Source: Pyropia yezoensis | Taxonomy: Eukaryota; Rhodophyta; Bangiophyceae; Bangiales; Bangiaceae | Direction: 5' to 3' | Length of the DNA stretch: 64,000 nt | Assembly: GCA_009829735.1 (NCBI GenBank) | Contig: CM020619.1 | Span: forward strand, 13,445,777 to 13,509,776 | Part shown: piece by piece, positions 1-35,367 of the stretch | Position numbering within the stretch: position 1 is the first letter of the stretch | How the letters are laid out: every line of letters begins with the position of its first letter | Notes under the pieces: model-generated | Told to the model about the DNA's origin: nothing | Database searches by the model: none | The model's input: the letters and a program-made list of their open reading frames with translations, nothing else | Made by a program: the position numbers and the translations under genes

Positions 1-2
1 CG

Positions 3-240
3 CGTCCCAAGATTGCCGCAAGAGGCAGTGACAGCGCATCTGTTGACAGCGGCGGTGATGCCAGCTGTAGTGGGGACGAGGGCGCGGGCACTGCAGCTGG
101 GTCGCGTGCGCCGTCCACTTGCGTCGCCACGTCTCGTCACCTGACCAAGATGAGCGTGGCTGCGCTTGAGGCGCTTCCTGACTTGGCCGGTCTGGGCGGT
201 TTGCTGGGCCTGAACGGCACGGCCAAAGTGCCAGTCCCGC
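3..240 (+). pseudogene. Left half of an unrecognised ORF, cut by the LTR of element A
   Basis: The frame starting at base 3 is open from the window edge to the first base of the LTR at 241 (79 codons), while the other two plus frames contain stops. The segment is Ser/Gly/Ala-rich and then has a Leu/Gly-rich stretch ending near residues VPVP. It is not a complete gene: it starts outside the window and is cut by a retroelement. The last base (240), added to the reverse complement of 22892 downward, continues the same frame into the ORF at 22303-22897. I infer these are two halves of one protein. Function not recognised. Confidence 0.6.
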
Positions 241-603
241 TGTAGCACAGTAGGGATCCGTCGCACGTCCACTCTCAGGGAACACTTACCAAGGGGGATC
301 GGCACCAACGTCACCGGGAGGCCAAGGTTGCTGTCCTTGGAGCGCAAGCCACGGGACCAAGATGGGAGCCCAGATGGGAGGGGTTTGTTGTTCTACCTTG
401 GCCGGCGGTGGATTCGCCGCCGGCCCCCACGTTATAAACCCTCGGAGACACTACTAACTACCCTCCACCCCAAGATGCAAGTCCCTCTGGTCATACGTAA
501 CTTATAGATACCGTGACCAGTACGAACAATCAAATTAGAAGTTAGGGGTTAGAAGTAGCCCCCCTAATATTAGGGTTACAATACGGCCAACCATATTGCT
601 ATA
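241..603 (-). repeat. 3' LTR of element A
   Basis: 363 bp homologous to 10677-11040 and to both LTRs of element B. On the element strand it starts TATAGCA where the others start TGTAGCA (TG to TA at the terminal dinucleotide) and ends in TGTGCTACA. It carries the variant GGTTGGCCG, as does the 5' LTR of B; the other two LTRs have GGTTGTCCG. Confidence 0.93.
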
Positions 604-1194
604 TATCCCCCCCTTAGATTTGGCCCGTCCTCGGGTCGAGTTGCATTCGGGTTACCGAATGTAAGTGGGTCGCGTGACCGTTTACCAGTCGGGTGGGGCT
701 TTGCGCCCCGTCGCGACAGACACCCCTTTTCGAGGTTGTCTGAGGGGGGTGCCCCCCTTTGTGTGGTACACACACGATCCGTTTTCCGGACCGTTAAATT
801 CCCGATGCGGGTTCTGTTCACGACCCCCCTTTCCGAGGGGTGGTGCAAGCGGATCCGCCACCTGGTGCCTGGTGGTAGGGGAGCCCCTCTCGTGTTACCG
901 AGTGAATGGGGGCGGCCGCTCCCGCTTTTCGCGGGGGCGGTTTCGGGGTGAACCCCTCTTGGTTGCCCCGTACGGGGGTGTGGCCCCGGCCCGCCCAGGT
1001 GCCTGGGTGGAGCCCGTTCGTAGCCTCGTGGGGCGCGGGTCGACCCGCGCGCCTGCGGCGCTTCTCGTGGCCGTTTGTGGTCATAAGCGCGGGCGCCCGC
1101 GCTTCCCTGGCTCGTCCGCGCGAGCGTTCTTCGTACTGGGTCGAGCCGGCCTCGGCTTTTCTGCAAGGGGCGCCCCTGCCACCCCGGTTGCACC
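604..1194. other. Polypurine tract and leader of the opposite-strand ORF
   Basis: Immediately inside the 3' LTR, 604-617 reads as a purine run on the element strand (seven G flanked by A), the expected polypurine tract for plus-strand priming. The remaining 580 bp up to the ATG at 1195 hold no supported gene; they contain many short GC-rich inverted repeats. Any promoter for the ORF at 1195 would lie here or in the LTR. I see no clear TATA box on the plus strand. Confidence 0.6.
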
Positions 1195-3564
1195 ATGTCG
1201 GACCCCCAGGTACCCGGGGGCGAGGACGACCTCCTGCCTGAAGAGGGGGAAGAGGTGATGGTGGACGACGTTCCCGTCTCCGCCACCGCCGCCGAGTGCT
1301 TCCTAGCGAGCTCGTCGGAGGACGAGGACGACCGGGTGACCGTTCGCGTGGCCCCGGACGGCGCGCCGGGCGGGTTGTCGTCCGTGTGTAGCGGCACGAC
1401 GGCTCCGTCGGGTGGCGGACAACCGCGTGCAGCGGTGGCTTCTACCGCTTCTCCTCCGGCGGCCCGGATGGCTTCTGTCGCCGGTACCGGCGTGGCTCTA
1501 CCTCAAGACGGTGTCGCCGGCGTGGCGGATGGTGGTGTTGGCACCCCGTCCAGTCCGGCGGGTCAAGACGGCGCGGGTGCCCGCCCGGTTGGTGTGTCCG
1601 CTGCGGCGGGTAGCGGGTCTACCCGTGCTGCCCCCGTGGTACCCACGTCGGGTCCGGGTGGCGGCGATGCTCTGCCCGCGGTGCCGCGGGCGTCTGGTGG
1701 TCAAGGTGGGTCTACACCGATGGCTGTGGACTCCGGTAGTTACTCCGGGCGGGCGCCCGTCCTTCTTCTTCCTCCTCGGCCGCGTGCGACTCCGGCGCCG
1801 GCCCCTCTTCCGGTGGGGCATCCCCCGGCGCCCCCTATTCTTCCTGGTCCTGCCCGGGTTGCCCCGTTGGGTGGCGGCGTCGCCGTGGCGGCGGGTCAAC
1901 CCGCCATGTCGATGTTCGACTTGGTGGCTCGGGTTCGAGGCCTGACTGTGCAAGAGTCAATGGAGTCCGATGGGCGGATGCGGGTGGACTTCCACCTGCC
2001 CCATCCCCGTGGAGAGTCCTCCCGGCGCGTCAAGGTGGACCCGAGTTGGGAGCGGGAGTTGGTGCGGCTGGTCAACCAGCCGAACGCGGTGCGAGTGGAA
2101 CACCATTGGATCCTGAGTCAGCCGGACGACCGGCATGCGCAGCTCTGGCGTACTCGGGTGGGACGGGGTGAGGTCTACCTCGACCCCGCCTTCGGGGTAT
2201 GCGACCTGATTGCTCCCGCGTTGCCGCGGGAGATTGACTACCCGGCTAGTGCTCGGGGGATTGCGGCGGCGGCGGAGCCGGTTGCGTTTGGGGAGACGGT
2301 GGGCAGTACCGGTCGGTATCCCGACTTTGATTACTACCCGGGGGTATCCCCGTATCTGTCGTTGACGGCTCCCTACCCGCCTATGGCGGGGTTGAAGTCG
2401 GCGTCGAGCTGGCGACGTAACCATGGTGTCATGGCGGATGCGTTTCGCACGGATATCACGTGTGCGTTGCAGACCGGCAACGGTCGTGCGCCGGTATACA
2501 CTCCCGTGCGCCCGCCGCTATGGCAGGAGGGGTGGGAACCCGCCCCTGCTTTCCGGTTTGACACCGGCTCCTGTCTCCGATACTTCGGGAGTGTGTTGGC
2601 CTCCCGGCCGGTCCACCCGTTGCAGGGTACCTTCACCCTTGAGGTTACCCTCGGGCAGGCGTCCTCCTTCTTGCTGTCCGTCCGCCGGCAGGGGCGCCTG
2701 TTTCATCTTCCGACGGGTGTCCGTCGGCACATCGCGCAGTTGGGCGTGGACCTGATAGCTGCCAAGACCGGGTTGGCCCGGGAGTTCGAGGCACTGCTGG
2801 CTGTTCACGATGCCGTGAACTGGGCTGGGGTGTTGGCCCTTCCCCCGTACCGGGACCCGCAGGCTGGGGCTACCCCCTTGCCTCGTCACTCGTTGCGTAT
2901 CCGGCGTACTCAGCCGGGTGAGCCTAGTTGCCATGGGTGGGCGTCCACCGAGGCCGTTCCTGACCTGGGTATTCCCATGGTTATCCATGACCCTCTTCAG
3001 GTCCTTGCCCCGTGGTTCGGTAACCCAATACCGGCGGCGGTTGGCCGTCGTCCCCGAGAGTGGGGCTCTGCGGGTGGGGAGCGTGAGGTGTCCCGTCGTC
3101 GGGCGGAGCCCCGCCGGGGTCACGGTGGAGCCCCTTCGGTAGGGTCCTACCGAGCCTCGTATCAGGTGCCACCGGCTCCGGTGGTAGCCGTGTCGGCTCC
3201 TTTGGCTCCTCTGGCTGCGCCAGTGTCCGCTCCCGCCCCTGTCATACAAGACGGGGGTCCCCGTCTCTGGTATGAGGGCGTTGACGCCCTTGTTGCCCGC
3301 GCAATGCGGGAGGGTCTCTCTGTTAGCTGGGGGGATATCCCCCCAGGTGCTGCGCTAGTTGGGTCAGCGCGTTGCTTCGGTGGCGTGCTGGACCGCCTCC
3401 AGAAAGCTCTGGAGGACGTGGAGGCTGGCCGCAGCACCCTCGTCCAGCTATGCACCGAGGTAACTCGGGTGATTGACCGTCGTGAGACTGCCGAACGGTG
3501 GAGCACGGAGGTATACGCGCTTACGCGTGAGTGGCCTCCCTCGGGCAGTGGGTCTACCCACTGA
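1195..3564 (+). CDS. 789-aa ORF antisense to gag-pol, inside element A (unknown function)
   Basis: An uninterrupted ORF starts at ATG 1195 (context CACCATGT) and runs opposite to gag-pol, between pol and the 3' LTR. The protein has an acidic N-terminus (about residues 1-50), a Pro/Ala/Gly-rich linker (about 60-240), a mixed region rich in Trp, Tyr and hydrophobic residues that looks globular (about 245-620), an Arg-rich patch (about 625-660) and a charged, probably helical C-terminus. I recognise no enzyme motif, zinc finger or membrane span. Antisense ORFs in this position are known in plant Tat-lineage gypsy elements (Grande, Retand). Whether this one is homologous is unknown. Element B has the same ORF with one stop. 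Confidence 0.7.
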   Translation: MSDPQVPGGEDDLLPEEGEEVMVDDVPVSATAAECFLASSSEDEDDRVTVRVAPDGAPGGLSSVCSGTTAPSGGGQPRAAVASTASPPAARMASVAGTGVALPQDGVAGVADGGVGTPSSPAGQDGAGARPVGVSAAAGSGSTRAAPVVPTSGPGGGDALPAVPRASGGQGGSTPMAVDSGSYSGRAPVLLLPPRPRATPAPAPLPVGHPPAPPILPGPARVAPLGGGVAVAAGQPAMSMFDLVARVRGLTVQESMESDGRMRVDFHLPHPRGESSRRVKVDPSWERELVRLVNQPNAVRVEHHWILSQPDDRHAQLWRTRVGRGEVYLDPAFGVCDLIAPALPREIDYPASARGIAAAAEPVAFGETVGSTGRYPDFDYYPGVSPYLSLTAPYPPMAGLKSASSWRRNHGVMADAFRTDITCALQTGNGRAPVYTPVRPPLWQEGWEPAPAFRFDTGSCLRYFGSVLASRPVHPLQGTFTLEVTLGQASSFLLSVRRQGRLFHLPTGVRRHIAQLGVDLIAAKTGLAREFEALLAVHDAVNWAGVLALPPYRDPQAGATPLPRHSLRIRRTQPGEPSCHGWASTEAVPDLGIPMVIHDPLQVLAPWFGNPIPAAVGRRPREWGSAGGEREVSRRRAEPRRGHGGAPSVGSYRASYQVPPAPVVAVSAPLAPLAAPVSAPAPVIQDGGPRLWYEGVDALVARAMREGLSVSWGDIPPGAALVGSARCFGGVLDRLQKALEDVEAGRSTLVQLCTEVTRVIDRRETAERWSTEVYALTREWPPSGSGSTH

Positions 3565-4042
3565 GGAGTGCTATTGGTTGTGAGGGAGAGGGCCCCGGTG
3601 ACCCTTATGGTAGCCGGGTAGTAGTGAGTATAAACTCATCCCCTTAGGGGGCATTGCTTGCCTCTGTTTGCTGCCCTGGGGAGTACCCCTTCTGGCTCAG
3701 TGGTGCCTTGCCTCCCGCCCAACTTCTTCCGGTTGGTTCATGCTTGGGGAGGTCATCCTCCCTCACTTTGTGTCTTGGCTTGGGGAGGTCATCCTCCCGT
3801 GTAAGCCCCCTATTTACTTCGATATTATCGAAGCTAGCCTTTACCTTTAAGTTAACTTATTAAGGTTCAGGTTTTACTGAGTTACCTAAGCTTGACTCTA
3901 CTTAGTTGCCTAAGCTTGGTTCGACTTAGAAGCCTTAGTCTGATTTGACTTAGAAACCTAAGTCTGCCGTAACCATGTCACACCCTACTTAGTAGGTATA
4001 AGCCTCACCCCCCAACAGCCGAAGTCGGTGTCGGTTGGGTTG
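3565..4042. repeat. Spacer between convergent ORFs with 24-bp tandem repeats
   Basis: About 480 bp between the ends of the antisense ORF and pol, with no gene. 3885-3969 is a 24-bp tandem array of three and a half units, each starting CCTAAG or CCTTAG and ending near CTTAG; it is distinctly AT-richer than its surroundings. A second repeat, GGGGAGGTCATCCTCC, occurs twice around 3750-3800. The region sits where two transcripts would converge and could hold their 3' ends. The same array is present in element B at about 29965-30049. Confidence 0.7.
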
Positions 4043-7000
4043 TTACAGTAGGCGTCGTCGCCTGATGTAAGGCATGAGGAGTTGGCGGGGTATATTTGCC
4101 GCCTGTTCCCAGGTGGGTGAGTCGTATCCGACCCACATAACCTTCACGTACCAGGGTCCTGGTAGGTTTGGGTCGGTGTGTCCGACCACGCTCTCTACTT
4201 GGTATGGAATCCCATCCGGTCCCACCGGGTCATCTGACCGGTGGGTTGTAAGAGCTTCATGCAGCAACCCGGCCGGTACCGGCTGAGGCTGTTCCGGCTT
4301 CGGAGCAGGTGTCACATCATTGAGATTTATGCGTTGTATCTTCGTATCGGAGAGCAGCATGACAGAGTGATCATCTCTGGGTAAGATCTGGTACGGTCCC
4401 TTGACCGGTTGCATGAGCTTGTTCCCTCGGAACTTCTTGTGTCTGATATAGACCCAGTCACCTGTTACCAGGGTAGCGTTGCGCACCCGTAGCCGGGCGT
4501 CGAAGTTCTTCTTGTATTGAAGTTGAGTTCGGTCAAGGGCACCCTTGAGCTTAGGAATCATCCAGGATAGCTTGGCCAACCAAGCTAGGTGGATACGTTC
4601 GGCCGGTCGGCCTTTCGGTGTATCATACCGAGTGCACCTGCCTGGTGGCAGCGTCAGGTTACCGACGCCTAGTGGCATAACCCACTCCAGCGGAGCGATG
4701 TTCGTGCTTCGATGTGGCCTGGCATTGTATGCCAGGGTGAGTACGGACAGAAGCCTGTCCCAAGTGTTTGTGTGCTCGGCCACGTAGCATTGTAGCATCT
4801 TGACGATGGTGCGGTTGAACCGCTCCACCTGCCCGTTGGTTTGCGGGTGGTAGTCGGATGCCCGACGTGGTTCGATGCCGAACATGCCCAGGACCTTAGT
4901 GCAGAATGCTGACGTAAGGTTTGCTCCGTTGTCGGAGAGGAGTTGCTTCATGACTCCGTATGCACTGATCCAGTGGTCAACCACTGCGTTCATGATGGTG
5001 TATGCCGTATCATTCGGGATGGCTGCCGCTCGTGACAGCTTAGTGAAGCGGTCAGACATGACCAGGATGTACCTGTTCCCTTCTTCCGTTACCGGAAGTG
5101 GCCCGAGTATGTCGATAGCGACTTGCTCGTTGGGCCCATCGGGTGGGAATAGCTTCATGGCAGACGCCTGCCTATGTAGACTCATGCGGTTACGCGCATA
5201 GGGGTGGCATCCCCTTACGTGGTCGACCACGTCGACGGCCATTGCTGGCCAGTAGAAGAACCTTCGCATTGCTGCGAACATACGTGAACCCCCCGGGTGT
5301 CCGGCTGTGGGGTTCTCGTGTTCTCGTTCCATGACGGCTTGCCGTAAGGACACGGGAACCACGACTTGATGTCGTCCATCGGCGGGTGCCCGCCGGTATA
5401 TGAGTCCGTCTTTGTTCTCGGAGAAGATGCCGGCCGTACCGGCCAGGAGGTTAGCGCGATGGCGTCTACAGTCGTCGTCATTGGCTTGTGCCTCGCGGAA
5501 GTCCGCGAGGGTTAGTGGGCATGCTCGGTGTGCCATGGTATGGTCAACCATACCTTGGGTAGCGTTACCCACCATGCACACCGGTACCACCGGGATGTCC
5601 TCGTCCACCGGGCGGGTATCCCCGCTCGGGGTGTCGAGTCGAGACAATGCGTCTCCGAGATGGTGGGTTGACCCAGCCTTATACACGGTACGGTAGTCGT
5701 GCTCGGCCATTTTTAGCCTCCATCGGGCTAGCCTCCCATGGCTATCGGAATCCTTGTCACCAAGGTTGAGGAGCCATCGTAGGGGTTCGTGGTCGGACCT
5801 CACGATGAACCTGGAGCCCTCCAGGTATGGACGGAGCAGTTGCACTGCCCATATAACTCCGAGGCATTCACGCTCGGTGGCACTATAGTTACGCTCAGCC
5901 GGGTTGAGTGTCCGGCTGAAGTATCCTACCGGACGTAGGTCCGGGATAGCGTTGTCGGTACCGATCAACGTCTCCCCCTGTAGCAGGGTGCATCCCACTT
6001 GGATGTCGCACGCATCGACATCGATGACGAAGGTACCCCGTCGGTGCGGTAACGCAAGGACGGGTGGGGATAGTACGGCTCGCTTCAGCGACTCGAATGC
6101 CTCCTCTTCGCTAGGCGAAGGGGGTTGGAGTACCTTGGGCAGGGTACTGCTCGTAAGAACCGTTAACGGTTTAGCTATCCGAGCGAAGTCCTTGACGAAC
6201 CGTCGGTATACATTGCACATTCCCAGGAAGCTCTTGAGCTGTGTCTGGGTGTTAGGGAACCGGGCATCCCGGAGTGCCCGGGTATTGGCTTCGAGTACCC
6301 CTAGTTCACCAGGGGTTATCTGGTGGCCCAGATACTCGACCGTCTGTTGGAAGAAGGCGCACTTCTTCAGACGCAGAGTTACCCCGGCGTTCCTCAAAAG
6401 GGTGAGCACCTCGTCAACATGTTGCACATGGTCATCCATGTTACGCGAGAAGACGATGACGTCATCGAGGTACACTAGGCAGTTACGCCACTTCACCCCC
6501 GACAGTATAATGTCGATAGCCCGCTGGAATGTAGCGGGGGCGTTGGACAATCCGAAGGGCATCCTTAGGAACTCGTACACTCCACTGTGACAGACGAATG
6601 CCGTCTTGGGGATATCCTCGTCCGCCACCGGGATCTGCCAGTATCCGGCATTGCAGTCGATGGTGGTAAACACCGTGGCTTCCCCCAGGGAGTCGATGCA
6701 TTCATCCATCCTTGGTAAAGGGTATGAGTCTTTCTTGGTAACCAAGTTGAGGCGTCGATAATCGATGCAAAACCGAGGGGTTTGATCCTTCTTCGGTACA
6801 ATAACGATTGGGGCACCCCACTCCGACATCGAAGGTCGTATCACCTTCGCTTCACTCATCCTCTTCACTTCTCCATCAACGATCTCTCGTTGCATAGGTC
6901 CCGCTCGGTGCGGTTGTGACCGGGCGGGGCGTGCGCCTGGTACCAGGTCAATACGATGTTGGGTTGCCCCAATGGTACCCAGGGCTCCGCCTGTCCACAT

Positions 7001-8491
7001 GACGTCATGCTTTCTTAACATCCGTCGTACCCCTTCGGCTACGGAAGGGGGAAGGTGGTCGAGGTCAGCCTCGGCCAGTGCCTTCAATGCTTCTTGGTCC
7101 TTCGGCGGAATATCCGCCGGTAGTGATGGTCGACTAGGCTTCCCGTCATCGGGTTGCTGTCGCTCGGTGGTCTCGGCGACCGCCAGCACCTCAAGTGGGT
7201 CCACTTGACCTTTCTTGTCAGGGGTAAGGATATCTCCTTCGTAGAGCTCGGCAATCTCGAGGATAGTTCCCTTCGGGAGGGTGACTGCCTTACGGCGATA
7301 GTTCGCCATCACTAGGAGGGACGACCCTCCTGATAGGAGGTCTATGAGACCGTTGGCCATGGTCAAGCCATGGCGCTTGTACGTCCGCAAGTTGGACTTG
7401 ACTCTGCAGATGCCTGCGAGGTCACAGTTAACCGGGAGCACTGTCTCCGACAACGGCTCAAAGCGAGTTCGCTTGGCCAACCGAAGTGTCTTCGGCTCGA
7501 CACTTGCGTACACCTCAGCCACGTTAACGTGGCTCCCATGTAGCGTCAGGTCCCTGACGATAGCTGTATGTCCTCGCTTCGTCCCGTCGGCTTCTTGAAG
7601 CTCGACGGTCCTCCGGCCTGGCCGGACTGCATCATCGTGAACGTTGATGAAGGTGCACCCCAGTATGCAGGGCACCGATAGGGTCTCACACACCAGGAAG
7701 TCGACTTCCGTGGTGAGTTCCCCGATGGTAACCCGCAGCGACATCGCTGCGGTCGTACGAATGAGGCGACCATTCGCGTCCTTGATGGTGGGTCCCCGAG
7801 TCACTCTGACTCGCGGAAGCCACTTGTCCGGGAGGGTATCCTTCCGGATAAGGTTGGGTCCAGCCCCTGTATCCAGTACAGGGTAGTACGATCGTGTCGA
7901 CTGGGGGTCAACCCCCAGTGTGGCTGATACCTTGAAGTTCTCCAAGGTAAACAGCACGTGGCCTACACCGATATCCGGTGTAGCTCGGGCATCCTGAACA
8001 GGGCCCTTGTCTGGTTCCATGTGACGGGGCTTCCCGTCCTCTCCTCCCAACCTTGGTGGTTGGTCATCAATCCCCTGACGCCGTGTCGTCGGGGCCGGAA
8101 GGTGTACCCGGGGGTTGATGCGGCGTCGGCTCAACCGCGCTCTCCGTGGGGCTTTCCCCGCGGTACTCCGGGGTGGCTTGCTTGGGTTACCCCAGCGCCC
8201 CCCGGTCATCCTTCCTCTTACTCGTTTCCCGCCCTTGGTAGGGTGCTGTCCGCCGGGACATCCGGCTGAGGAGGTGCCTCCTCGACGGTAGGGTGCTGTC
8301 CGCCGGGGCATCCGGCTGAGGAGGTGCCTCCTCGACGGCCAGTACTCCACCTGGAGCTGGCTGCCTACCCGGTGCGGGTCCGGGTGCTCCGGCGGGATAC
8401 CCCCCGGTGGATGCCTTGCGGTGCGCCGCTGCCCGCCGAGACTCCTCGGGGATGAGTGGGCAGGAAGACACCCAGTTCTGGGGATCCCCAC
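4043..8491 (-). CDS. pol: pol polyprotein of element A (protease-RT-RNase H-integrase-chromodomain)
   Basis: The open frame spans 1482 codons; the functional part probably begins near the frameshift heptamer at 8224-8230. In order I see an aspartic protease motif DTGAG, an RT with YLDD catalytic box and LPRMDE/FGLSNAP signatures, RNase H (VIDVDAC, TERECLG, SDHEPLRW), an integrase zinc region, the integrase catalytic triad (AIDILG, SDNGA, QVERF) and a C-terminal chromodomain-like segment (YVKVMWVGY, TWEQAANIP). The second Cys of the integrase HHCC finger is Tyr (codon 5198-5200; B has Cys), which should impair this copy. It is in the +1 frame relative to gag because of the 50-bp duplication at 8237-8336. 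Confidence 0.93.
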   Translation of the reverse strand: MGIPRTGCLPAHSSPRSLGGQRRTARHPPGGIPPEHPDPHRVGSQLQVEYWPSRRHLLSRMPRRTAPYRRGGTSSAGCPGGQHPTKGGKRVRGRMTGGRWGNPSKPPRSTAGKAPRRARLSRRRINPRVHLPAPTTRRQGIDDQPPRLGGEDGKPRHMEPDKGPVQDARATPDIGVGHVLFTLENFKVSATLGVDPQSTRSYYPVLDTGAGPNLIRKDTLPDKWLPRVRVTRGPTIKDANGRLIRTTAAMSLRVTIGELTTEVDFLVCETLSVPCILGCTFINVHDDAVRPGRRTVELQEADGTKRGHTAIVRDLTLHGSHVNVAEVYASVEPKTLRLAKRTRFEPLSETVLPVNCDLAGICRVKSNLRTYKRHGLTMANGLIDLLSGGSSLLVMANYRRKAVTLPKGTILEIAELYEGDILTPDKKGQVDPLEVLAVAETTERQQPDDGKPSRPSLPADIPPKDQEALKALAEADLDHLPPSVAEGVRRMLRKHDVMWTGGALGTIGATQHRIDLVPGARPARSQPHRAGPMQREIVDGEVKRMSEAKVIRPSMSEWGAPIVIVPKKDQTPRFCIDYRRLNLVTKKDSYPLPRMDECIDSLGEATVFTTIDCNAGYWQIPVADEDIPKTAFVCHSGVYEFLRMPFGLSNAPATFQRAIDIILSGVKWRNCLVYLDDVIVFSRNMDDHVQHVDEVLTLLRNAGVTLRLKKCAFFQQTVEYLGHQITPGELGVLEANTRALRDARFPNTQTQLKSFLGMCNVYRRFVKDFARIAKPLTVLTSSTLPKVLQPPSPSEEEAFESLKRAVLSPPVLALPHRRGTFVIDVDACDIQVGCTLLQGETLIGTDNAIPDLRPVGYFSRTLNPAERNYSATERECLGVIWAVQLLRPYLEGSRFIVRSDHEPLRWLLNLGDKDSDSHGRLARWRLKMAEHDYRTVYKAGSTHHLGDALSRLDTPSGDTRPVDEDIPVVPVCMVGNATQGMVDHTMAHRACPLTLADFREAQANDDDCRRHRANLLAGTAGIFSENKDGLIYRRAPADGRHQVVVPVSLRQAVMEREHENPTAGHPGGSRMFAAMRRFFYWPAMAVDVVDHVRGCHPYARNRMSLHRQASAMKLFPPDGPNEQVAIDILGPLPVTEEGNRYILVMSDRFTKLSRAAAIPNDTAYTIMNAVVDHWISAYGVMKQLLSDNGANLTSAFCTKVLGMFGIEPRRASDYHPQTNGQVERFNRTIVKMLQCYVAEHTNTWDRLLSVLTLAYNARPHRSTNIAPLEWVMPLGVGNLTLPPGRCTRYDTPKGRPAERIHLAWLAKLSWMIPKLKGALDRTQLQYKKNFDARLRVRNATLVTGDWVYIRHKKFRGNKLMQPVKGPYQILPRDDHSVMLLSDTKIQRINLNDVTPAPKPEQPQPVPAGLLHEALTTHRSDDPVGPDGIPYQVESVVGHTDPNLPGPWYVKVMWVGYDSPTWEQAANIPRQLLMPYIRRRRLL

Positions 8492-10451: not shown

Positions 10452-10656
10452 AGTCACAATCAGTCAACCGACGTAACAATCACCACGAATAAGAGAGCGA
10501 GGGGGTAGATTGGGGAGAGTAACAGTAAATCACAGTCAAAGGTAAAAACTCAACACAATCGATCAGGTCGCAACACCACGAGTACAAGAAAAGGACCGGA
10601 TCCCTATCCGTGTGCCAGGGCCGAATACGGCGTCACCACAAGGGTGACGGAAACCC

Positions 10657-10675
10657 GTCCCCTGCTGCTCCACCA
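10657..10675 (-). other. tRNA primer-binding site of element A
   Basis: One base inside the 5' LTR, the element strand reads TGGTGGAGCAGCAGGGGAC. The leading TGG pairs with a tRNA CCA end, and the rest implies an acceptor stem ending in CTGCTCCA. The identical 19-mer follows the 5' LTRs of B, C and D. I cannot name the tRNA with confidence. Confidence 0.85.
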
Positions 10676-10676
10676 A

Positions 10677-11040
10677 TGTAGCACAATAGGGATCCGTCGC
10701 ACGTCCACTCTCAGGGAACACTCACCAAGGGGGATCGGCACCAACGTCACCGGGAGGACAAGGTTGCTGTCCTTGGAGCGCAAGCCACGGGACCAAGATG
10801 GGAGCCCAGATGGGAGGGGTTTGTTGTTCTACCCTGGCCGGTGGTGGATTCGCCGCCGGCCCCCACGTTATAAACCCTCGGAGACACTACTAACTACCCT
10901 CCACCCCAAGATGCAAGTCCCTCTGGTCATACGTAATTTATAGATACCGTGACCAGTCCGGACTATCAAATTGAAAGCCAAGGATTAGAAGTCGGCCCCC
11001 CTAATATTAGGGTCACAATACGGACAACCATATTGCTACA
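10677..11040 (-). repeat. 5' LTR of element A
   Basis: 364 bp, TGTAGCA...TGCTACA on both ends. It carries the variants GGTTGTCCG and CCTTGGCTTTC, which pair it with the 3' LTR of element B rather than with its own partner at 241-603. It includes a TTTATAA box and a GC hairpin, as described for B. Confidence 0.95.
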
Positions 11041-12934: not shown

Positions 12935-12938
12935 TATT

Positions 12939-12957
12939 TGGTGGAGCAGCAGGGGAC
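12939..12957 (+). other. tRNA primer-binding site of element C
   Basis: TGGTGGAGCAGCAGGGGAC, identical to the sites of A, B and D although the LTR and coding sequences of C are clearly a different family. Confidence 0.85.
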
Positions 12958-13143
12958 TGGAGTGTTTGAGAAGAGACATTTGGGAGCAGCGGTTGGGTTG
13001 TTCCTGTTCTGTCTTTTTGTGCGGTTTGGGAATTATTTGCACCCGTTCACGGGAATCGCATTCCTGGCTCCCCAACGCCTCTCTTGTGGTCTTGCGATCT
13101 TTGGACACGCAGGCAACTGGACTGTGGCTGTCAAGAGACCAAC

Positions 13144-23260: not shown

Positions 23261-23261
23261 T

Positions 23262-23280
23262 TGGTGGAGCAGCAGGGGAC
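23262..23280 (+). other. tRNA primer-binding site of element B
   Basis: TGGTGGAGCAGCAGGGGAC one base after the LTR; identical to A, C and D. A leader of about 200 bp without a gene follows, up to the gag ATG. Confidence 0.87.
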
Positions 23281-23485
23281 GGGTTTCCGTCACCCGTGTG
23301 GTGACGCCGTCTTCGGCCCTGGCACACGGATAGGGATCCGGTCCTTTTCTTGTACTCGTGGTGTTGCGACCTGATCGATTGTGTTGAGTTTTTACCTTTG
23401 ACTGTGATTTACTGTTACTCTCCCCAATCTACCCCCTCGCTCTCTTATTCGTGGTGATTGTTACGTCGGTTGACTGATTGTGACT

Positions 23486-25750: not shown

Positions 25751-28700
25751 CCCAAGCAAGCCACCCCGGAGTACCGCGGGGAAAGCCCCACGGAGAGCGC
25801 GGTTGAGCCGACGCCGCATCAACCCCCGGGTACACCTTCCGGCCCCGACGACACGGCGTCAGGGGATTGATGACCAACCACCAAGGTTGGGAGGAGAGGA
25901 CGGGAAGCCCCGTCACATGGAACCAGACAAGGGCCCTGTTCAGGATGCCCGAGCTACACCGGATATCGGTGTAGGCCACGTGCTGTTTACCTTGGAGAAC
26001 TTCAAGGTATCAGCCACACTGGGGGTTGACCCCCAGTCGACACGATCGTACTACCCTGTACTGGATACAGGGGCTGGACCCAACCTTATCCGGAAGGATA
26101 CCCTCCCGGACAAGTGGCTTCCGCGAGTCAGAGTGACTCGGGGACCCACCATCAAGGACGCGAATGGTCGCCTCATTCGTACGACCGCAGCGATGTCGCT
26201 GCGGGTTACCATCGGGGAACTCACCACGGAAGTCGACTTCCTGGTGTGTGAGACCCTATCGGTGCCCTGCATACTGGGGTGCACCTTCATCAACGTTCAC
26301 GTTGATGCAATCCGGCCAGGCCGGAGGACCGTCGAGCTTCAAGAAGCCGACGGGACGAAGCGAGGACATACAGCTATCGTCAGGGACCTGACGCTACATG
26401 GGAGCCACGTTAACGTGGCTGAGGTGTACGCAAGCGTCGAGCCGAAGACACTTCGGTTGGCCAAGCGAACTCGCTTTGAGCCGTTGTGGGAGACAGTCCT
26501 CCCGGTTAACTGTGACCTCGCAGGCATCTGCAGAGTCAAGTCCAACCTGCGGACGTACAAGCGCCATGGGTTGACCTTGGCCAACGGTCTCATAGACCTC
26601 CCATCAGGAGGGTCGTCCCTCTTAGTGATGGCGAACTATCGCCGTAAGGCAGTCACCCTCCCGAAGGGAACTATCCTCGGGATTGCCGAGCTCTACGAAG
26701 GAGATATCCTTACCCCTGACAAGAAAGGTCAAGTGGACCCACTTGAGGTGCTGGCGGTCGCCGAGACCACCGAGCGACAGCAACCCGAAGACGGGAAGCC
26801 TAGTCGACCATCATTACCGGCGGATATTCCGCCGAAGGACCAAGAAGCATTGAAGGCACTGGCCGAGGCTGACCTCGACCACCTTCCCCCTTCGGTAGCC
26901 GAAGGGGTACGACGAATGCTAAGAAAGCATGACGTCATGTGGACAGGCGGGGCCTTGGGTACCATTGGGGCAACCCAACATCGTATTGACCTGGTACCAG
27001 GCGCACGCCCCGCCCGGTCACAACCGCACCGAGCGGGACCTATGCAACGAGAGATCGTTGATGGAGAAGTGAAGAGGATGAGTGAAGCGAAGGTGATACG
27101 ACCTTCGATGTCGGAATGGGGTGCCCCAGTCGTTATCGTACCGAAGAAGGATCAAACCCCTCGGTTTTGCATCGATTACCGACGCCTCAACTTGGTTACC
27201 AAGAAAGACTCATACCCTTTACCAAGGATGGATGAATGCATCGACTCCCTGGGGGAGGCTACGGTGTTTACCACCATCGACTGCAATGCCGGATACTGGC
27301 AGATCCCGGTGGCGGACGAGGATATCCCCAAGACGGCATTCGTCTGTCACAGTGGAGTGTACGAGCTCCTAAGGATGCCCTTCGGATTGTCCAACGCCCC
27401 CGCTACATTCCAGCGGGCTATCGACATTATACTGTCGGGGGTGAAGTGGCGTAACTGCCTAGTGTACCTCGATGACGTCATCGTCTTCTCGCGTAACATG
27501 GATGACCATGTGCAACATGTTGACGAGGTGCTCACCCTTTTGAGGAACGCCGGGGTAACCCTGCGTCTGAAGAAGTGCGCCTTCTTCCAACAGACGGTCG
27601 AGTACCTGGGCCACCAGATAACCCCTGGTAAACTAGGGGTACTCGAAGCCAATACCCGGGCACTCCGGGATGCCCGGTTCCCTAACACCCAGACACAGCT
27701 CAAGAGCTTCCTGGGAATGTGCAATGTATACCGACGGTTCGTCAAGGACTTCGCTCGGATAGCTAAACCGTTAACGGTTCTTACGAGCAGTACCCTGCCC
27801 AAGGTACTCCAACCCCCTTCGCCTAGCGAAGAGGAGGCATTCGAGTCGCTGAAGCGAGCCCTACTATCCCCACCCGTCCTTGCGTTACCGCACCGACGGG
27901 GTACCTTCGTCATCGATGTCGATGCATGCGATACACAAGTGGGATGCACCCTGTTACAGGGGGAGACGTTGATCGGTACCGATAACGTTATCCCGGACCT
28001 ACGTCCGGTAGGATACTTCAGCCGGACACTCAACCCGGCTGAGCGTAACTATAGTGCCACCGAGCGTGAATGCCTCGGAGTTATATGGGCAGTGCAACTG
28101 CTCCGTCCATACCTGGAGGGCTCCAGGTTCATCGTGAGGTCCGACCACGAACCCCTACGATGGCTCCTCAACCTTGGTGACAAGGATTCCGATAGCCATG
28201 GGAGGCTAGCCCGATGGAGGCTAAAAATGGCCGAGCACGACTACCGTACCGTGTATAAGGCTGGGTCAACCCACCATCTCGGAGACGCATTGTCTCGCCT
28301 CGACACCCCGAGCGGGGATACCCGCCCGGTGGACGATGGCATCCCGGTGGTACCGGTCTGCATGGTGGGTACCACCCAAGGTATGGTTGACCATACCATG
28401 GCACACCGAGCATGCCCACTAACCCTCGCGGACTTCCGCGAGGCACAAGCCAATGACGACGACTGTAGACGCCATCGCGCTAACATCCTGGCCGGTACGG
28501 CCGGCATCTTCTCCGAGAACGAAGACGGACTCATATACCGGCGGGCACCCGCCGATGGACGACATCAAGTCGTGGTTCCCGTGTCCTTACGGCAAGCCGT
28601 CATGGAACGAGAACACGAGAACCCCACAGCCGGACACCCGGGGGGTTCACGTATGTTCGCAGCAATGCGAAGGTTCTTCTACTGGCCAGCAATGGCCGTC

Positions 28701-29891
28701 GACGTGGTCGACCACGTAAGGGGATGCCACCCCTGTGCGCGTAACCGCATGAGTCTACATAGGCAGGCATCTGCCATGAAACTATTCCCACCCGATGGGC
28801 CCAACGAGCAAGTCGCTATCGACATACTCGGGCCACTTCCGGTAACGGAAGAAGGGAACAGGTACATCCTGGTCATGTCTGACCGCTTCACTAAGCTGTC
28901 ACGAGCGGCAGCCATCCCGAATGATACGGCATACACCATCATGAACGCAGTGGTTGACCACTGGATCAGTGCATACGGAGTCATGAAGCAACTCCTCTCC
29001 GACAACGGAGCAAACCTTACGTCAGCATTCTGCACTAAGGTCCTGGGCATGTTCGGCATCGAACCACGTCGGGCATCCGACTACCACCCGCAAACCAACG
29101 GGCAGGTGGAGCGGTTCAACCGCACCATCGTCAAGATGCTACAGTGCTACGTGGCCGAGCACACGAACACTTGGGACAGGCTTCTGTCCGTACTCACCCT
29201 GGCATACAATGCCAGGCCACATCGGAGCACAAACATCGCTCCGCTGGAGTGGGTCATGCCATTAGGCGTCGGTAACCTGACGCTGCCGCCAGGCAGGTGC
29301 ACTCGGTATGATACACCGAAAGGCCGACCGGCCGAACGTATCCACCTAGCTTGGTTGGCCAAGCTATCGTGGATGATTCCTAAGCTCAAGGGTGCCCTTG
29401 ACAGAACCCAACTTCGATATAAGACGAACTTCGACGCCCGACTACGGGTGCGCAACGCTACCCTGGTAACAGGTGACTGGGTCTATATCAGACATCAGAA
29501 GTTCCGGGGGAACAAGCTCATGCAACCGGTCAAGGGACCGTACCAGATTCTCCACAGAGATGACCACTCTGTTATCTTACACTCCGATACGGAGATCCAA
29601 CGCATCAGTGTGAATGATGTCACACCTGCTCCGAAGCCGGAACAGCCTCAGCCGGTACCGGCTGGGTTGCTACATGAAGCTCTTACAACCCACCGGTCAG
29701 ATGACCCGGTGGGACCGGGTGGGATTCCATACCAAGTAGAGAGCGTGGTCGGACACACCGACGCGGACCTACCAGGACCCTGGTACGTGAAGGTTATGTG
29801 GGTCGGATACGACTCACCCACCTGGGAACAGGCGGCAAATATACCCCGCCAACTCCTCATGCCTTACATGAGGCGACGACGCCTACTGTAA
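25446..29891 (+). CDS. pol: pol polyprotein of element B (protease-RT-RNase H-integrase-chromodomain)
   Basis: Open frame of 1481 codons; the functional part probably starts near 25708. Counting from 25446: protease DTGAG at about 207-211, RT YLDD at about 674-677, RNase H (VIDVDACDTQVGC, TERECLG, SDHEPLRW), and integrase zinc finger with both His and CHPC intact. The integrase triad is Asp1126, Asp1186 and Glu1222, which gives the usual DD35E spacing. The C-terminal chromodomain-like segment (WYVKVMWVGY...TWEQAANIP) may direct integration into chromatin. The copy looks enzymatically intact. Expression depends on frameshifting, and the normal -1 signal is out of phase. Confidence 0.94.
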   Translation: MGIPRTGCLPAHSSPRSLGGQRRTARHPPGGIPPEHPDPHRVGSQLQVEYWPSRRHLLSRMSRRTAPYRRGGTSSAGCPGGQHPTKGGKRVRGRMTGGRWGNPSKPPRSTAGKAPRRARLSRRRINPRVHLPAPTTRRQGIDDQPPRLGGEDGKPRHMEPDKGPVQDARATPDIGVGHVLFTLENFKVSATLGVDPQSTRSYYPVLDTGAGPNLIRKDTLPDKWLPRVRVTRGPTIKDANGRLIRTTAAMSLRVTIGELTTEVDFLVCETLSVPCILGCTFINVHVDAIRPGRRTVELQEADGTKRGHTAIVRDLTLHGSHVNVAEVYASVEPKTLRLAKRTRFEPLWETVLPVNCDLAGICRVKSNLRTYKRHGLTLANGLIDLPSGGSSLLVMANYRRKAVTLPKGTILGIAELYEGDILTPDKKGQVDPLEVLAVAETTERQQPEDGKPSRPSLPADIPPKDQEALKALAEADLDHLPPSVAEGVRRMLRKHDVMWTGGALGTIGATQHRIDLVPGARPARSQPHRAGPMQREIVDGEVKRMSEAKVIRPSMSEWGAPVVIVPKKDQTPRFCIDYRRLNLVTKKDSYPLPRMDECIDSLGEATVFTTIDCNAGYWQIPVADEDIPKTAFVCHSGVYELLRMPFGLSNAPATFQRAIDIILSGVKWRNCLVYLDDVIVFSRNMDDHVQHVDEVLTLLRNAGVTLRLKKCAFFQQTVEYLGHQITPGKLGVLEANTRALRDARFPNTQTQLKSFLGMCNVYRRFVKDFARIAKPLTVLTSSTLPKVLQPPSPSEEEAFESLKRALLSPPVLALPHRRGTFVIDVDACDTQVGCTLLQGETLIGTDNVIPDLRPVGYFSRTLNPAERNYSATERECLGVIWAVQLLRPYLEGSRFIVRSDHEPLRWLLNLGDKDSDSHGRLARWRLKMAEHDYRTVYKAGSTHHLGDALSRLDTPSGDTRPVDDGIPVVPVCMVGTTQGMVDHTMAHRACPLTLADFREAQANDDDCRRHRANILAGTAGIFSENEDGLIYRRAPADGRHQVVVPVSLRQAVMEREHENPTAGHPGGSRMFAAMRRFFYWPAMAVDVVDHVRGCHPCARNRMSLHRQASAMKLFPPDGPNEQVAIDILGPLPVTEEGNRYILVMSDRFTKLSRAAAIPNDTAYTIMNAVVDHWISAYGVMKQLLSDNGANLTSAFCTKVLGMFGIEPRRASDYHPQTNGQVERFNRTIVKMLQCYVAEHTNTWDRLLSVLTLAYNARPHRSTNIAPLEWVMPLGVGNLTLPPGRCTRYDTPKGRPAERIHLAWLAKLSWMIPKLKGALDRTQLRYKTNFDARLRVRNATLVTGDWVYIRHQKFRGNKLMQPVKGPYQILHRDDHSVILHSDTEIQRISVNDVTPAPKPEQPQPVPAGLLHEALTTHRSDDPVGPGGIPYQVESVVGHTDADLPGPWYVKVMWVGYDSPTWEQAANIPRQLLMPYMRRRRLL
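25601..25700 (+). repeat. 50-bp tandem duplication at the gag/pol overlap of B
   Basis: Two identical 50-bp units, 25601-25650 and 25651-25700, starting GTCGAGGAGG. Because both A and B have it, it predates their divergence or was spread by conversion between them. Confidence 0.96.
25707..25713 (+). promoter_or_regulatory. GGGAAAC frameshift heptamer, out of phase with gag in B
   Basis: Gag reads CGG GAA ACG here, so -1 slippage cannot use it. With one 50-bp unit gag would read G GGA AAC GAG TAA, exactly as in C, and -1 would enter pol. In the present copy pol is +1 to gag. Confidence 0.75.
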
Positions 29892-30369
29892 CGACCCAAC
29901 CGACACCGACTTCGGCTGTTGGGGGGTGAGGCTTATACCTACTAAGTAGGGTGTGACATGGTTACGGCAGACTTAGGTTTCTAAGTCAAATCAGACTAAG
30001 GCTTCTAAGTCGAACCAAGCTTAGGCAACTAAGTAGAGTCAAGCTTAGGTAACTCAGTAAAACCTGAACCTTAATAAGTTAACTTAAAGGTAAAGGCTAA
30101 CTTCGATAATATCGAAGTAAATAGGGGGCTTACACGGGAGGATGACCTCCCCAAGCCAAGACACAAAGTGAGGGAGGATGACCTCCCCAAGCATGAACCA
30201 ACCGGAAGAAGTTGGGCGGGAGGCAAGGCACCACTGAGCCAGAAGGGGTACTCCCCAGGGCAGCAAACAGAGGCAAGCAATGCCCCCTAAGGGGATGAGT
30301 TTATACTCACTACTACCCGGCTACCATAAGGGTCACCGGGGCCCTCTCCCTCACAACCAATAGCACTCC
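29892..30369. repeat. Spacer with 24-bp tandem repeats in element B
   Basis: Inverse complement of 3565-4042. It contains no gene; the 24-bp array lies at about 29965-30049. It separates the converging ends of pol and the antisense ORF. Confidence 0.7.
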
Positions 30370-32739
30370 TCAGTGGGTAGACCCACTGCCCGAGGGAGGC
30401 CACTCACGCGTAAGCGCGTATACCTCCGTGCTCCACCGGTCGGCAGTCTCACGACGGTCAATCACCCGAGTTACCTCGGTGCATAGCTGGACGAGGGTGC
30501 TGCGGCCAGCCTCCACGTCCTCCAGAGCTTTCTGGAGGCGGTCCAGCACGCCACCGAAGCAACGCGCTGACCCAACTAGCGCAGCACCTGGGGGAATATC
30601 CCCCCAGCTAACAGAGAGACCCTCCCGCATTGCGCGGGCAACAAGGGCGTCAACGCCCTCATACCAGAGACGGGGACCCCCGTCTTGTATGACAGGGGCG
30701 GGAGCGGACACTGGCGCAGCCAGAGGAGCCAGAGGAGCCGACACGGCTACCACCGGAGCCGGTGGCACCTGATACGAGGCTCGGTAGGACCCTACCGAAG
30801 GGGCTCCACCGTGACCCCGGCGGGGCTCCGCCCGACGACGGGACACCTCACGCTCCCCACCCGCAGAGCCCCACTCTCGGGGACGACGGCCAACCGCCGC
30901 CGGTATCGGGTTACCGAACCACGGGGCAAGGACCTGAAGAGGGTCATGGATAACCATGGGAATACCCAGGTCAGGAACGGCCTCGGTGGACGCCCACCCA
31001 TGGCAACTAGGCTCACCCGGCTGAGTACGCCGGATACGCAACGAGTGACGAGGCAAGGGGGTAGCCCCAGCCTGCGGGTCCCGGTACGGGGGAAGGGCCA
31101 ACACCCCAGCCCAGTTCACGGCATCGTGAACAGCCAGCAGGGCCTCGAACTCCCGGGCCAACCCGGTCTTGGCAGCTATCAGGTCCACGCCCAACTGCGC
31201 GATGTGCCGACGGACACCCGTCGGAAGATGAAACAGGCGCCCCTGCCGGCGGACGGACAGCAAGAAGGAGGACGCCTGCCCGAGGGTAACCTCAAGGGTG
31301 AAGGTACCCTGCAACGGGTGGACCGGCCGGGAGGCCAACACACTCCCGAAGTATCGGAGACAGGAGCCGGTGTCAAACCGGAAAGCAGGGGCGGGTTCCC
31401 ACCCCTCCTGCCATAGCGGCGGGCGCACGGGAGTGTATACCGGCGCACGACCGTTGCCGGTCTGCAACGCACACGTGATATCCGTGCGAAACGCATCCGC
31501 CATGACACCATGGTTACGTCGCCAGCTCGACGCCGACTTCAACCCCGCCATAGGCGGGTAGGCAGCCGTCAACGACAGATACGGGGATACCCCCGGGTAG
31601 TAATCAAAGTCGGGATACCGACCGGTACTGCCCACCGTCTACCCAAACGCAACCGGCTCCGCCGCCGCCGCAATCCCCCGAGCACTAGCCGGGTAGTCAA
31701 TCTCCCGCGGCAACGCGGGAGCAATCAGGTCGCATACCCCGAAGGCGGGGTCGAGGTAGACCTCACCCCGTCCCACCCGAGTACGCCAGAGCTGCGCATG
31801 CCGGTCGTCCGGCTGACTCAGGATCCAATGGTGTTCCACTCGCACCGCGTTCGGCTGGTTGACCAGCCGCACCAACTCCCGCTCCCAACTCGGGTCCACC
31901 TTGACGCGCCGGGAGGACTCTCCACGGGGATGGGGCAGGTGGAAGTCCACCCGCATCCGCCCATCGGACTCCATTGACTCTTGCACAGTCAGGCCTCGAA
32001 CCCGAGCCACCAAGTCGAACATCGACATGGCGGGTTGACCCGCCGCCACGGCGACGCCGCCACCCAACGGGGCAACCCGGGCAGGACCAGGAAGAATAGG
32101 GGGCGCCGGGGGATGCCCCACCGGAAGAGGGGCCGGCGCCGGAGTCGCACGCGGCCGAGGAGGAAGAAGAAGGACGGGCGCCCGCCCGGAGTAACTACCG
32201 GAGTCCACAGCCATCGGTGTAGACCCACCTTGACCACCAGACGCCCGCGGCACCGCGGGCAGAGCATCGCCGCCACCCGGACCCGACGTGGGTACCACGG
32301 GGGCAGCACGGGTAGACCCGCTACCCGCCGCAGCGGACACACCAACCGGGCGGGCACCCGCGCCGTCTTGACCCGCCGGACTGGACGGGGTGCCAACACC
32401 ACCATCCGCCACGCCGGCGACACCGTCTTGAGGTAGAGCCACGCCGGTACCGGCGACAGAAGCCATCCGGGCCGCCGGAGGAGAAGCGGTAGAAGCCACC
32501 GCTGCACGCGGTTGTCCGCCACCCGACGGAGCCGTCGTGCCGCTACACACGGACGACAACCCGCCCGGCGCGCCGTCCGGGGCAACGCGAACGGTCACCC
32601 GGTCGTCCTCGTCCTCCGACGAGCTCGCTAGGAAGCACTCGGCGGCGGTGGCGGAGACGGGAACGTCGTCCACCATCACCTCTTCCCCCTCTTCAGGCAG
32701 AAGGTCGTCCTCGCCCCAGGGTACCTGGGGGTCCGACAT
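30370..32739 (-). pseudogene. Antisense ORF of element B, with one premature stop
   Basis: Same 789-codon frame as 1195-3564 in A, starting at ATG 32739 on the minus strand. It is broken by TAG at 31639-31641, where A has GAG (Glu). The halves are 366 and about 420 codons and remain in one frame. Only a few other residue differences from A are visible (for example PYPPMAG in A, AYPPMAG here). The N-terminal half alone would hold the acidic and Pro/Ala-rich parts. Confidence 0.8.
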
Positions 32740-33330
32740 GGTGCAACCGGGGTGGCAGGGGCGCCCCTTGCAGAAAAGCCGAGGCCGGCTCGACCCGGTA
32801 CGAGGAACGCTCGCGCGGACGAGCCAGGGAAGCGCGGGCGCCCGCGCTTATGAACACAAACGGCCACGAGAAGCGCCTCAGGCGCGCGGGTCAACCCGCG
32901 CCCCACGGGGCTTCGAACGGGCTCCACCCAGGCACCTGGGCGGGCCGGGGCCACACCCCCGTACGGGGCAACCAAGAGGGGTTCACCCCGAAACCGCCCC
33001 CGCAACAAGCGGGAGCGGCCGCCCCCATTCACTCGGTAACACGAGAGGGGCTCCCCTACCACCAGACACCTGGTGGCGGATCCGCTTGCACCACCCCTCG
33101 GAAAGGGGGGTCGTGAACAGAACCCGCATCGGGAATTTAACGGTCCGGAAAACGGATCGTGTGTGTACCACACAAAGGGGGGCACCCCCCTCAGACAACC
33201 TCGAAAAGGGGTGTCTGTCGCGACGGGGCGCAAAGCCCCACCCGACTGGTAAACGGTCACGCGACCAACTTACATTCGGTATCCCGAATGAAACTCGACC
33301 CGAGGACGGGCCGAATCTAAGGGGGGGATA

Positions 33331-33694
33331 TGTAGCAATATGGTTGTCCGTATTGTGACCCTAATATTAGGGGGGGCTACTTCTAATCCTTGGCTTTCAA
33401 TTTGATAGTTCGTACTGGTCACGGTATCTACAAATTACGTATGACCAGAGGGACTTGCATCTTGGGGTGGAGGGTAGTTAGTAGTGTCTCCGAGGGTTTA
33501 TAACGTGGGGGCCGGCGGCGAATCCACCACCGGCCAAGGTAGAACAACAAACCCCTCCCATCTGGGCTCCCATCTTGGTCCCGTGGCTTGCGCTCCAAGG
33601 ACAGCAACCTTGGCCTCCCGGTGACGTTGGTGCCGATCCCCCTTGGTGAGTGTTCCCTGAGAGTGGACGTGCGACGGATCCCTATTGTGCTACA
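33331..33694 (+). repeat. 3' LTR of element B
   Basis: 364 bp, TGTAGCA...TGCTACA, preceded by the polypurine tract AAGGGGGGGATA (33319-33330). It carries GGTTGTCCG and CCTTGGCTTTC, matching the 5' LTR of A. It is followed by GTCGC and the copia-type RT half. Confidence 0.95.
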
Positions 33695-35367
33695 GTCGCC
33701 CGCCCGCTGACCCACCACCGACCACGCCGACGCCACCCATCCGAACGCACACGCGCGCCCCCGCCCCGCTGGCACAACTGCCCGCGGCGGCCCGCGTGTT
33801 CTCGACGCACTCCGTCGACCCAAGCTCCCACCAACACCCCCGCTGGGACGCAGCCAAGAAGACGGAGATCGATGTCTTCCGCTCCATGGGCTGCATGCGC
33901 GCTGTGCCCGCAACGGAGGTGCCCAAGGGCACCCAGATATTCGACTACGTCTGGCGGGTTACCTACAAGGAGAACCGTGAAAACGGCAAACCGCCCGCCC
34001 GCGCCCGCTTCTGCATCGCCGGCAACCGGGACTGGAACAAGGAGAGCAACGTGCCAACGTCGCCCGTCACCCCGCAACGCGCCATCCGCACACTCGGCGC
34101 CGCAGCAGTTATCCTCGGCTTCACCCTCCGCACGAAGGAGTTCCTTCGAGCCTACCTCCAGTCCGACGAGCTCCCCGAGCCGATCTACGTGCGCATCCCC
34201 CCCGAGGCTGGCGAGCCCTTCCCCTTCGTTTGGGCCTTCTTCCGCGCCATCTACGGCAAGGACGACGCCGGCCGCCACTTCCTCTTTTCCCTGCAGAAGC
34301 GGTTCCTCAACATCCCTAACGTCACCCTCAGCATGGCGTTCGAGACGATCTACATCTGGGCCCTCCACGGCGCTATAGCGGCCTACGTGGACGACACCCT
34401 CTCTATGGGCGACAAGCTGTTCGACGCCGCCATCTGCACCGTCATGGAGCAGTACAAGACCCACCGCCCGGACCACGGCACCGTCCAGTTCGCGGGCATC
34501 TCAGTAACGACGGACGACCACGGCGTGCACTGCAACGCGGGCCATTACGCCTCCTCGCTCGTGCCCATCATCGAGCCTGAGCGCATGACGGGCCCCTTGC
34601 CCCACCCCCGGGCGCTGAGCGCCCTCGCCGCCAAGCTGCTATGGATCGGCCGATGCGGGCGGCCGGACGTCCTCACCAACGCCACGCAGCTGGCCAACCT
34701 CGCGGCACCGACGGGCGCGGACGCCCGCCACGCCAACGACACCCTGGCACTGCTCATCAACCGACCGCTGTCGCTGAACTACCCCAAACTGGACCGAGCA
34801 TCCCTCCGCATCGTCGTCTACGCCGACTACTCGGGCTCCGCGCTCTCCAACGTCGGCAAGCGACAAGTCTGCTTCATGGCCGCGCTCAAGGACGACACCA
34901 ACCGATTCTCCCTCCTCAACCGGGCGTCCCACAAGCCCTCCCGCGTCTGCCGAGGGTCTACGGCTGGCGAGCTGCTGGCCCCGGCCGACGGATACGCGGC
35001 CGCCCTCGACGTCCGCCAACTCCTACAAGAGCTACTCGACCAGCACATCCCTGTCGAGACCTACACGGACTCAGCCACGGCGTACGACCTGGTCACGTCC
35101 TTCAAGGACCCGGCGGACCTGACCGGCAAGAACGACCTGTTCACCCTGCGGCGGGCGCTCCTCGACGGCTCCATGGCGGCCATCCACCACTTCCACGGCG
35201 AGCACAGCCCGGCCGACCCGCTCTCCAAGCCGACGTGGTCAAGGCCCACGCCCAACAACGCGCTCAAGGTCGCCCTGCACACGGGCGTGTTCGAAACGCC
35301 CACGACCTCGCAGACGACCACCGACGCGTACCGCAACTCCCCAAGGGCCGGCACACCCGAGGCCTAG
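33695..35367 (+). pseudogene. Ty1/copia-type RT/RNase H half of the broken pol gene
   Basis: The frame is open from the LTR of B to a TAG at 35365-35367, about 557 codons. It begins with a Pro/Thr-rich linker, then a copia-type RT (TEIDVFRSMGCM, RARFCIAGN, FLRAYLQSDELPEPIYVRIP) with catalytic AYVDD at about 34381, then RNase H (VVYADYSG, TAGELLAPADGYAAA, TYTDSATAYD, HGEHSPADPLSK). It has no start codon of its own near the LTR. It is the continuation of the integrase half at 11041-12362, from which it is now separated by 21 kb and a strand switch. The order integrase before RT is the copia order. I could not define the copia LTR beyond 35367. Confidence 0.85.

Follow-up and report, generated by a model that had tools for sequence, protein, structure and literature searches.

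Crosswise target-site duplications and terminal repeats of two opposed Ty3/gypsy elements mark a flipped 11.9-kb segment in Pyropia yezoensis

Two opposed retrotransposons flank a flipped segment

The subject of this study is a stretch of 64,000 nucleotides from the red alga Pyropia yezoensis (assembly GCA_009829735.1, contig CM020619.1, positions 13,445,777 to 13,509,776), hereafter called the window. It carries two Ty3/gypsy retrotransposons with long terminal repeats (LTRs), element A (positions 241 to 11040, minus strand) and element B (22898 to 33694, plus strand). They lie in opposite orientation and align with 98.4% identity over about 10.8 kb; the alignment shows 168 substitutions and has gaps at 5 positions. 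The 11,857-bp segment between them (11041 to 22897) is, on strong support, flipped relative to its order when the elements inserted, as judged from the crosswise 5-bp flanks, the kinship of the LTRs, uninterrupted copies of both insertion sites, and homologous proteins. We lean toward a real crossover between the inverted copies as the event that turned the segment over, and we infer that this exchange would have occurred in the DNA of the organism and inside the elements. The initial annotation had proposed such an inversion; the flipped state of the segment held up, whereas a biological origin is only somewhat more probable than a flip made during assembly, a doubt that the initial annotation had itself raised.

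According to the explanation that we favor, two members of one Ty3/gypsy family, here called X and Y, would have landed in opposite orientation at sites about 12 kb from each other, and each would have duplicated 5 bp of its target. The target of X would have been a multi-copy protein-coding sequence, and that of Y an older retroelement-like repeat. The two copies may later have paired and crossed over by non-allelic homologous recombination, which would invert the 11,857 bp between them and leave the chimeric A and its reciprocal recombinant B; in both, one LTR and one flank would come from X and the others from Y.

Target-site duplications are exchanged between A and B

Both elements start with TG and end with CA at their outer edges, so the element boundaries are exact. 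CCCGC stands left of A (236 to 240, plus strand), and the second copy of this putative X duplication stands left of B as its reverse complement, GCGGG (22893 to 22897, plus strand). GCGAC, to the right of A (11041 to 11045, plus strand), is likewise the reverse complement of GTCGC, to the right of B (33695 to 33699, plus strand), and these two would be the duplication made by Y. All four 5-mers are exactly where the initial annotation had placed them, and its reading that neither element has matching flanks of its own, A-left pairing with B-left and A-right with B-right, was confirmed.

That argument presupposes a 5-bp duplication, which was previously unproven for this family. We therefore surveyed 34 LTR pairs on contig C1, taken from the first-listed LTR matches and chosen, not at random, for a spacing of about 10.5 to 10.9 kb. 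Four pairs were dropped for ends that the motif had missed (L076/77, L097/98, L109/110 and L111/112) and three for not being single elements, namely LTR arrays or duplicated blocks (L083/84, L095/96 and L117/118). Among the 27 scorable elements left, 22 have a perfect 5-bp duplication, one has a duplication with a one-base difference, and four have none; the 22 include one insertion present twice (L089/90 and L091/92) and one pair in a duplicated block (L082/83). Read by eye, the duplication was also seen in two further elements and one solo LTR. The initial annotation had allowed that insertions lacking a 5-bp duplication would weaken its case: the 22 perfect ones speak for the premise, and the five imperfect ones speak against it. 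Within that sample, none of these five has a reciprocal partner.

Since the lack of a perfect duplication is nothing unusual (5 of 27 elements), one could suppose that A and B are two unrelated odd insertions, or insertions with mutated duplications, whose flanks happen to match crosswise. Between different surveyed elements, 5-bp flanks agree in 6 of 2808 comparisons on both strands, and four of those six agreements stem from one insertion that is present twice. At no more than about 0.2% each, two crosswise matches would, taken as a product, arise by chance for any one pairing about 5 times in a million. The 22 duplications together with this background establish the 5-bp length and make a double crosswise match very unlikely as an accident. 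Accident would also leave the LTR kinship and the uninterrupted sites unexplained, and we regard it as extremely improbable; the uninterrupted copies of both restored sites, described below, refute it in practice.

LTRs are related crosswise

When an element inserts, its two LTRs are identical. A-left (241 to 603, minus strand; taken as 241 to 601 in the LTR analysis) and B-left (22898 to 23260, plus strand) would both descend from X, and A-right (10677 to 11040, minus strand) and B-right (33331 to 33694, plus strand) from Y. Eight sites in the alignment of these four LTRs are informative, dividing them two against two: A-left is paired with B-left at six of them, with B-right at one, and with A-right at one. 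The crosswise pairs differ by 1.92% (A-right and B-right) and 3.32% (A-left and B-left), and the pairs as they now stand differ by 4.99% within A and 2.75% within B. A tree of 96 LTRs, printed without support values, has A-right as the sister of B-right in one group and puts A-left and B-left together in another. This line of evidence is good but not overwhelming.

The same data bear on aberrant transposition (hybrid element insertion), by which cut-and-paste transposons are known to make inversions. An LTR retrotransposon does not excise, and we give this origin almost no credence here. Its outcome can closely resemble that of ectopic recombination (PMC2775673), yet it predicts identical, non-chimeric copies, whereas A and B differ by 168 substitutions and carry mixed LTRs.

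Both LTR types were found mixed in only 1 of 31 surveyed pairs, L078/L079 (C1:8413221-8423972), whose LTRs are 4.1% apart and which has no target duplication. This pair shows the same sign as A and B at another place and is a candidate second recombinant.

Uninterrupted copies of both insertion sites are contiguous in the flipped-back order

The flanks were joined in the flipped-back order and used as queries against the same genome. The restored X site matches contiguously at C2:21301603-21302002 (site L041) with 97% identity over 400 of 400 bases; it gave three matches, among them the two halves in the window itself. For the restored Y site a contiguous match lies at C2:467525-467924 (L044), with 94% identity, again over 400 of 400 bases, and the ten matches of this site comprise four across the join, the window's own two halves, and four one-sided ones. 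The three weaker copies across the Y join are 80%, 79%, and 68% identical. In the best copy of each site the 5-mer is present once, exactly at the join (CCCGC in the case of L041), and in the more diverged Y-site copies one base of it differs.

Homology reaches well beyond the queries, to 1637 and 1700 bases on either side of the X join and to 1320 and 1701 on either side of the Y join. Of the multi-copy sequence into which X would have inserted, the first half lies at 1 to 240 (plus strand) and is 96.7% identical to L041 over 1700 bases, a match that runs on past the left edge of the window for about 1,458 bp; the second half (21274 to 22897, minus strand) is 94.4% identical over 1637 aligned bases and contains an open frame at 22306 to 22890 on the minus strand. 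For the repeat that Y would have entered, the first half (11041 to 12360, minus strand) is 91.1% identical to L044 and holds a retroelement-like frame, and the second (33695 to 35395, plus strand) is 91.7% identical to L044 over 1701 bases and 80.3% to L048.

Reading frames and proteins tell the same story as the nucleotide matches. Open frames of 512 codons (X) and 1039 codons (Y) run across the restored joins, and in the present arrangement the four pieces that make them up lie in frames of 349, 282, 516, and 557 codons. The left half of the X-site frame alone found 17 homologous proteins from other sources, and in 16 of the 17 the right half is also present, downstream and in order. The uninterrupted sites and restored frames are evidence independent of the LTRs.

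The identity of the two targets was also searched for. Pfam gave no match for the halves of the X target, and 5 of its 17 homologues have nothing above the cut-off. On the halves of the Y target, Pfam gave only a weak integrase zinc-binding match, which lies in the first half (E value 0.0029, below the cut-off), and no reverse transcriptase match; a sequence search of the Y target against PDB gave one weak unrelated match (E value 0.054). A reading of the Y target by eye as a copia-type pol was thus not confirmed by either search.

Crossover in the genome or flip in the assembly

The rival that deserves most attention is a flip made by the assembly, in which X and Y still stand in their insertion order and the middle segment was mis-joined through the 10.8-kb inverted repeats. 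We consider this a substantial possibility, although it is not the explanation that we would choose. The published P. yezoensis assembly combined PacBio RSII reads and HGAP3 with 5-kb mate pairs, PBJelly, BioNano, and Hi-C (PMC7423979); it comprises 660 contigs with an N50 of 340.8 kb, and its scaffolds of 43.6, 34.3, and 29.4 Mb correspond to the three chromosomes of the haploid (PMC7423979). We take the window to have been assembled by that method, as part of the same assembly or of a descendant, and the combination of PacBio RSII reads, HGAP3, that N50, and 5-kb mate pairs makes the assembly doubt more serious. The family is also large, with 944 and 891 matches to an LTR end in the genome (up to 2 mismatches), and two other places in the survey resemble assembly trouble. 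At L089-L092 (C1:15454948-15511424), one insertion seems to be present in two copies, about 46 kb apart and beside a run of N, whose flanks are near-identical in reverse complement; this looks like an inverted duplication or an assembly fault. At L083/L084 (C1:13173231-13184302), two 3' LTRs stand 10.5 kb apart and are followed by identical 120-bp flanks, as if a block had been duplicated in tandem or the assembly were faulty.

Against a flip made by the assembly, intact duplications were assembled in 22 of the 27 scorable elements, so mis-joins cannot be the rule. The two arms differ at 168 positions, their longest substitution-free run is 942 bp, and the window contains no N. The sequenced material came from homozygous thalli (PMC7423979), so that no collapsed heterozygous inversion is required.

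Several observations count against a crossover in the organism. An assembly flip predicts the tested sequence features equally well, and HGAP3 on PacBio RSII reads could mis-join 10.8-kb repeats. Five of the six crosswise LTR sites fall within 51 columns and therefore represent one block rather than six independent witnesses. B-left and B-right (2.75%) are closer to each other than A-left is to B-left (3.32%), and L054/L055, a pair with an intact duplication, nonetheless has LTRs 4.4% apart; given these two cases, LTR divergence alone proves nothing. The divergence of the X LTRs (3.3%) also exceeds that between A and B (1.6%), an excess that a simple history would not lead one to expect and that could stem from gene conversion or from selection before insertion.

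The crossover point adds to these difficulties. When the elements were compared four ways, using a single reference for each LTR type, the crossover had seemed to lie between 7390 and 9504. Once 4 and 5 references were used, those sites that lie at 6680 to 7390 and 9504 to 9516 proved polymorphic within one or both groups, and since these mid-element sites vary within the groups, the map was withdrawn. Five sites at the outer right end (10149 to 10332) fit the expected exchange in a comparison of one X-type reference with 16 to 17 Y-type pieces, and two sites further left (1130 and 4769) contradict it.

A real crossover need not have happened only once. Inverted arms of 10.8 kb with 98.4% identity and 12 kb apart are a classic substrate for repeated flipping, and the segment might toggle among strains or nuclei, with one state caught in the assembly. 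The differences between A and B are distributed patchily, at 0 to 0.7% per 300-base bin over 1441 to 4140 and 8.7% over 4141 to 4440, so that the elements were mosaic before insertion or have exchanged sequence since. The 942-bp stretch free of substitutions (1351 to 2292), beside a tract of about 9% divergence, could have been left by conversion from arm to arm. Recombination between element RNAs before insertion would, however, also be expected to give such a mosaic pattern, and other copies of the family vary at several of the mosaic sites. We consider recurrent flipping unlikely; its probability overlaps with that of a real crossover, because toggling is a form of one. It would be a bold and equally doubtful step to see in A and B a live flip-flop that repeatedly inverts 12 kb in a haploid-diploid red alga, within a genome-wide exchange among hundreds of copies.

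Structure of the elements and of the flipped segment

The assignment of A and B to Ty3/gypsy rests on their coding content and ends. The pol frames (A, 4043 to 8491, minus strand; B, 25446 to 29891, plus strand, 1481 amino acids) have the same Pfam domains in both copies, in the Ty3/gypsy order of protease, reverse transcriptase, RNase H, and integrase: a gag-asp protease at residues 205 to 283 (below its cut-off), RVT_1 at 565 to 725, RNase H at 820 to 930, the integrase zinc-binding domain H2C2 at about 1045 to 1102, and the integrase core rve at about 1119 to 1216. In the gag position of A lies a frame of 756 amino acids (8187 to 10457, minus strand) with no Pfam match; gag-pol of A is on the minus strand. 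The LTRs carry the TG and CA ends of this group, and in other family copies a putative primer-site-like TTGGTGGAGCAG and a G-rich tract adjoin the LTRs, where Ty3/gypsy elements have a primer site and polypurine tract. A short, fixed target duplication, here 5 bp, is a further Ty3/gypsy feature of the family. The inner edge of the A-left LTR reads TA in place of CA.

Antisense to gag-pol, A has an open frame of 789 amino acids (1195 to 3564), whose equivalent in B (30370 to 32739) is divided by a stop into two frames; a Pfam search with the frame of A found no match. A scan of the whole window against Rfam gave no match at gathering thresholds.

Inside the flipped segment lies an older, decayed gypsy element, here called C (12363 to 20476, plus strand), with LTRs of about 571 to 574 bp. 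The homology of the Y site stops at 12360, where C starts. Among 40 scored matches, the LTRs of C are nearest to each other (97%, against 94 to 95% for the others), and its flanks, GTGCA and CACCC, disagree. No continuation to the right of C was found for the repeat on its left. As the flanks are unmatched and the left repeat is not continued, a further deletion or exchange probably took place at the right edge of C.

Other arrangements of the A and B family were seen elsewhere in the genome. At L026/L027 (C2:29419036-29430841), two LTRs face each other; the side with the G-rich tract points inward in both, and their flanks are similar in reverse complement, suggesting a fold-back arrangement of element ends. 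At C1:807790-819260, C1:1497761-1507603, and C1:1581223-1585301, the LTR end motif recurs at even intervals (about 880, 1228, and 2028 bp), and these loci appear to be tandem arrays containing the LTR end of this family.

Comparison with known systems

Repeats make up 48.0% of the P. yezoensis genome (PMC7423979), and the combination used here, crosswise duplications, crosswise LTRs, and uninterrupted copies, offers a cheap whole-genome test for counting such events. If the inversion is real, it is a retroelement-mediated inversion in a red alga for which an uninterrupted copy of both parental sites has been located; if it is an artefact, this test picks out segments that repeat-rich assemblies carry in the wrong orientation. 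In either case the underlying biology is an established process. Narrow literature searches found no published account of this inversion, and the word "inversion" occurs 0 times in the main text of PMC7423979.

In LTR elements and endogenous retroviruses, mismatched flanks together with discordant LTRs are a sign of exchange between copies. What distinguishes A and B from such duplication-less elements is that both reciprocal products are adjacent and that an uninterrupted copy of each site was located.

The closest likeness is the Drosophila inversion 2z3 between Galileo transposons, which was attributed to ectopic recombination (PMC2775673). As there, where these three signs served as the proof, opposed homologous copies lie at both ends, the target duplications are exchanged, and both copies are chimeric, which for A and B is seen from LTR kinship only. 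That the sites are contiguous in the other order was established for 2z3 by comparison with non-inverted chromosomes, whereas for A and B it is seen on related, uninterrupted copies elsewhere in the same genome. The 2z3 element is a DNA transposon and its crossover was mapped within 141 bp, whereas A and B are LTR retrotransposons, the inverted segment measures 11.9 kb, and the candidate crossover map was withdrawn. Recombination between retrotransposons also made inversions between L1 or Alu copies in human and chimpanzee, where the derived state is recognized by chimeric elements and by duplications that do not match (PMC2603318). Those involve non-LTR elements and were confirmed by PCR and a second species, whereas A and B are LTR elements. 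The flipped segment of P. yezoensis is, in this company, a new instance of a known process, in a red alga, and not a new kind.

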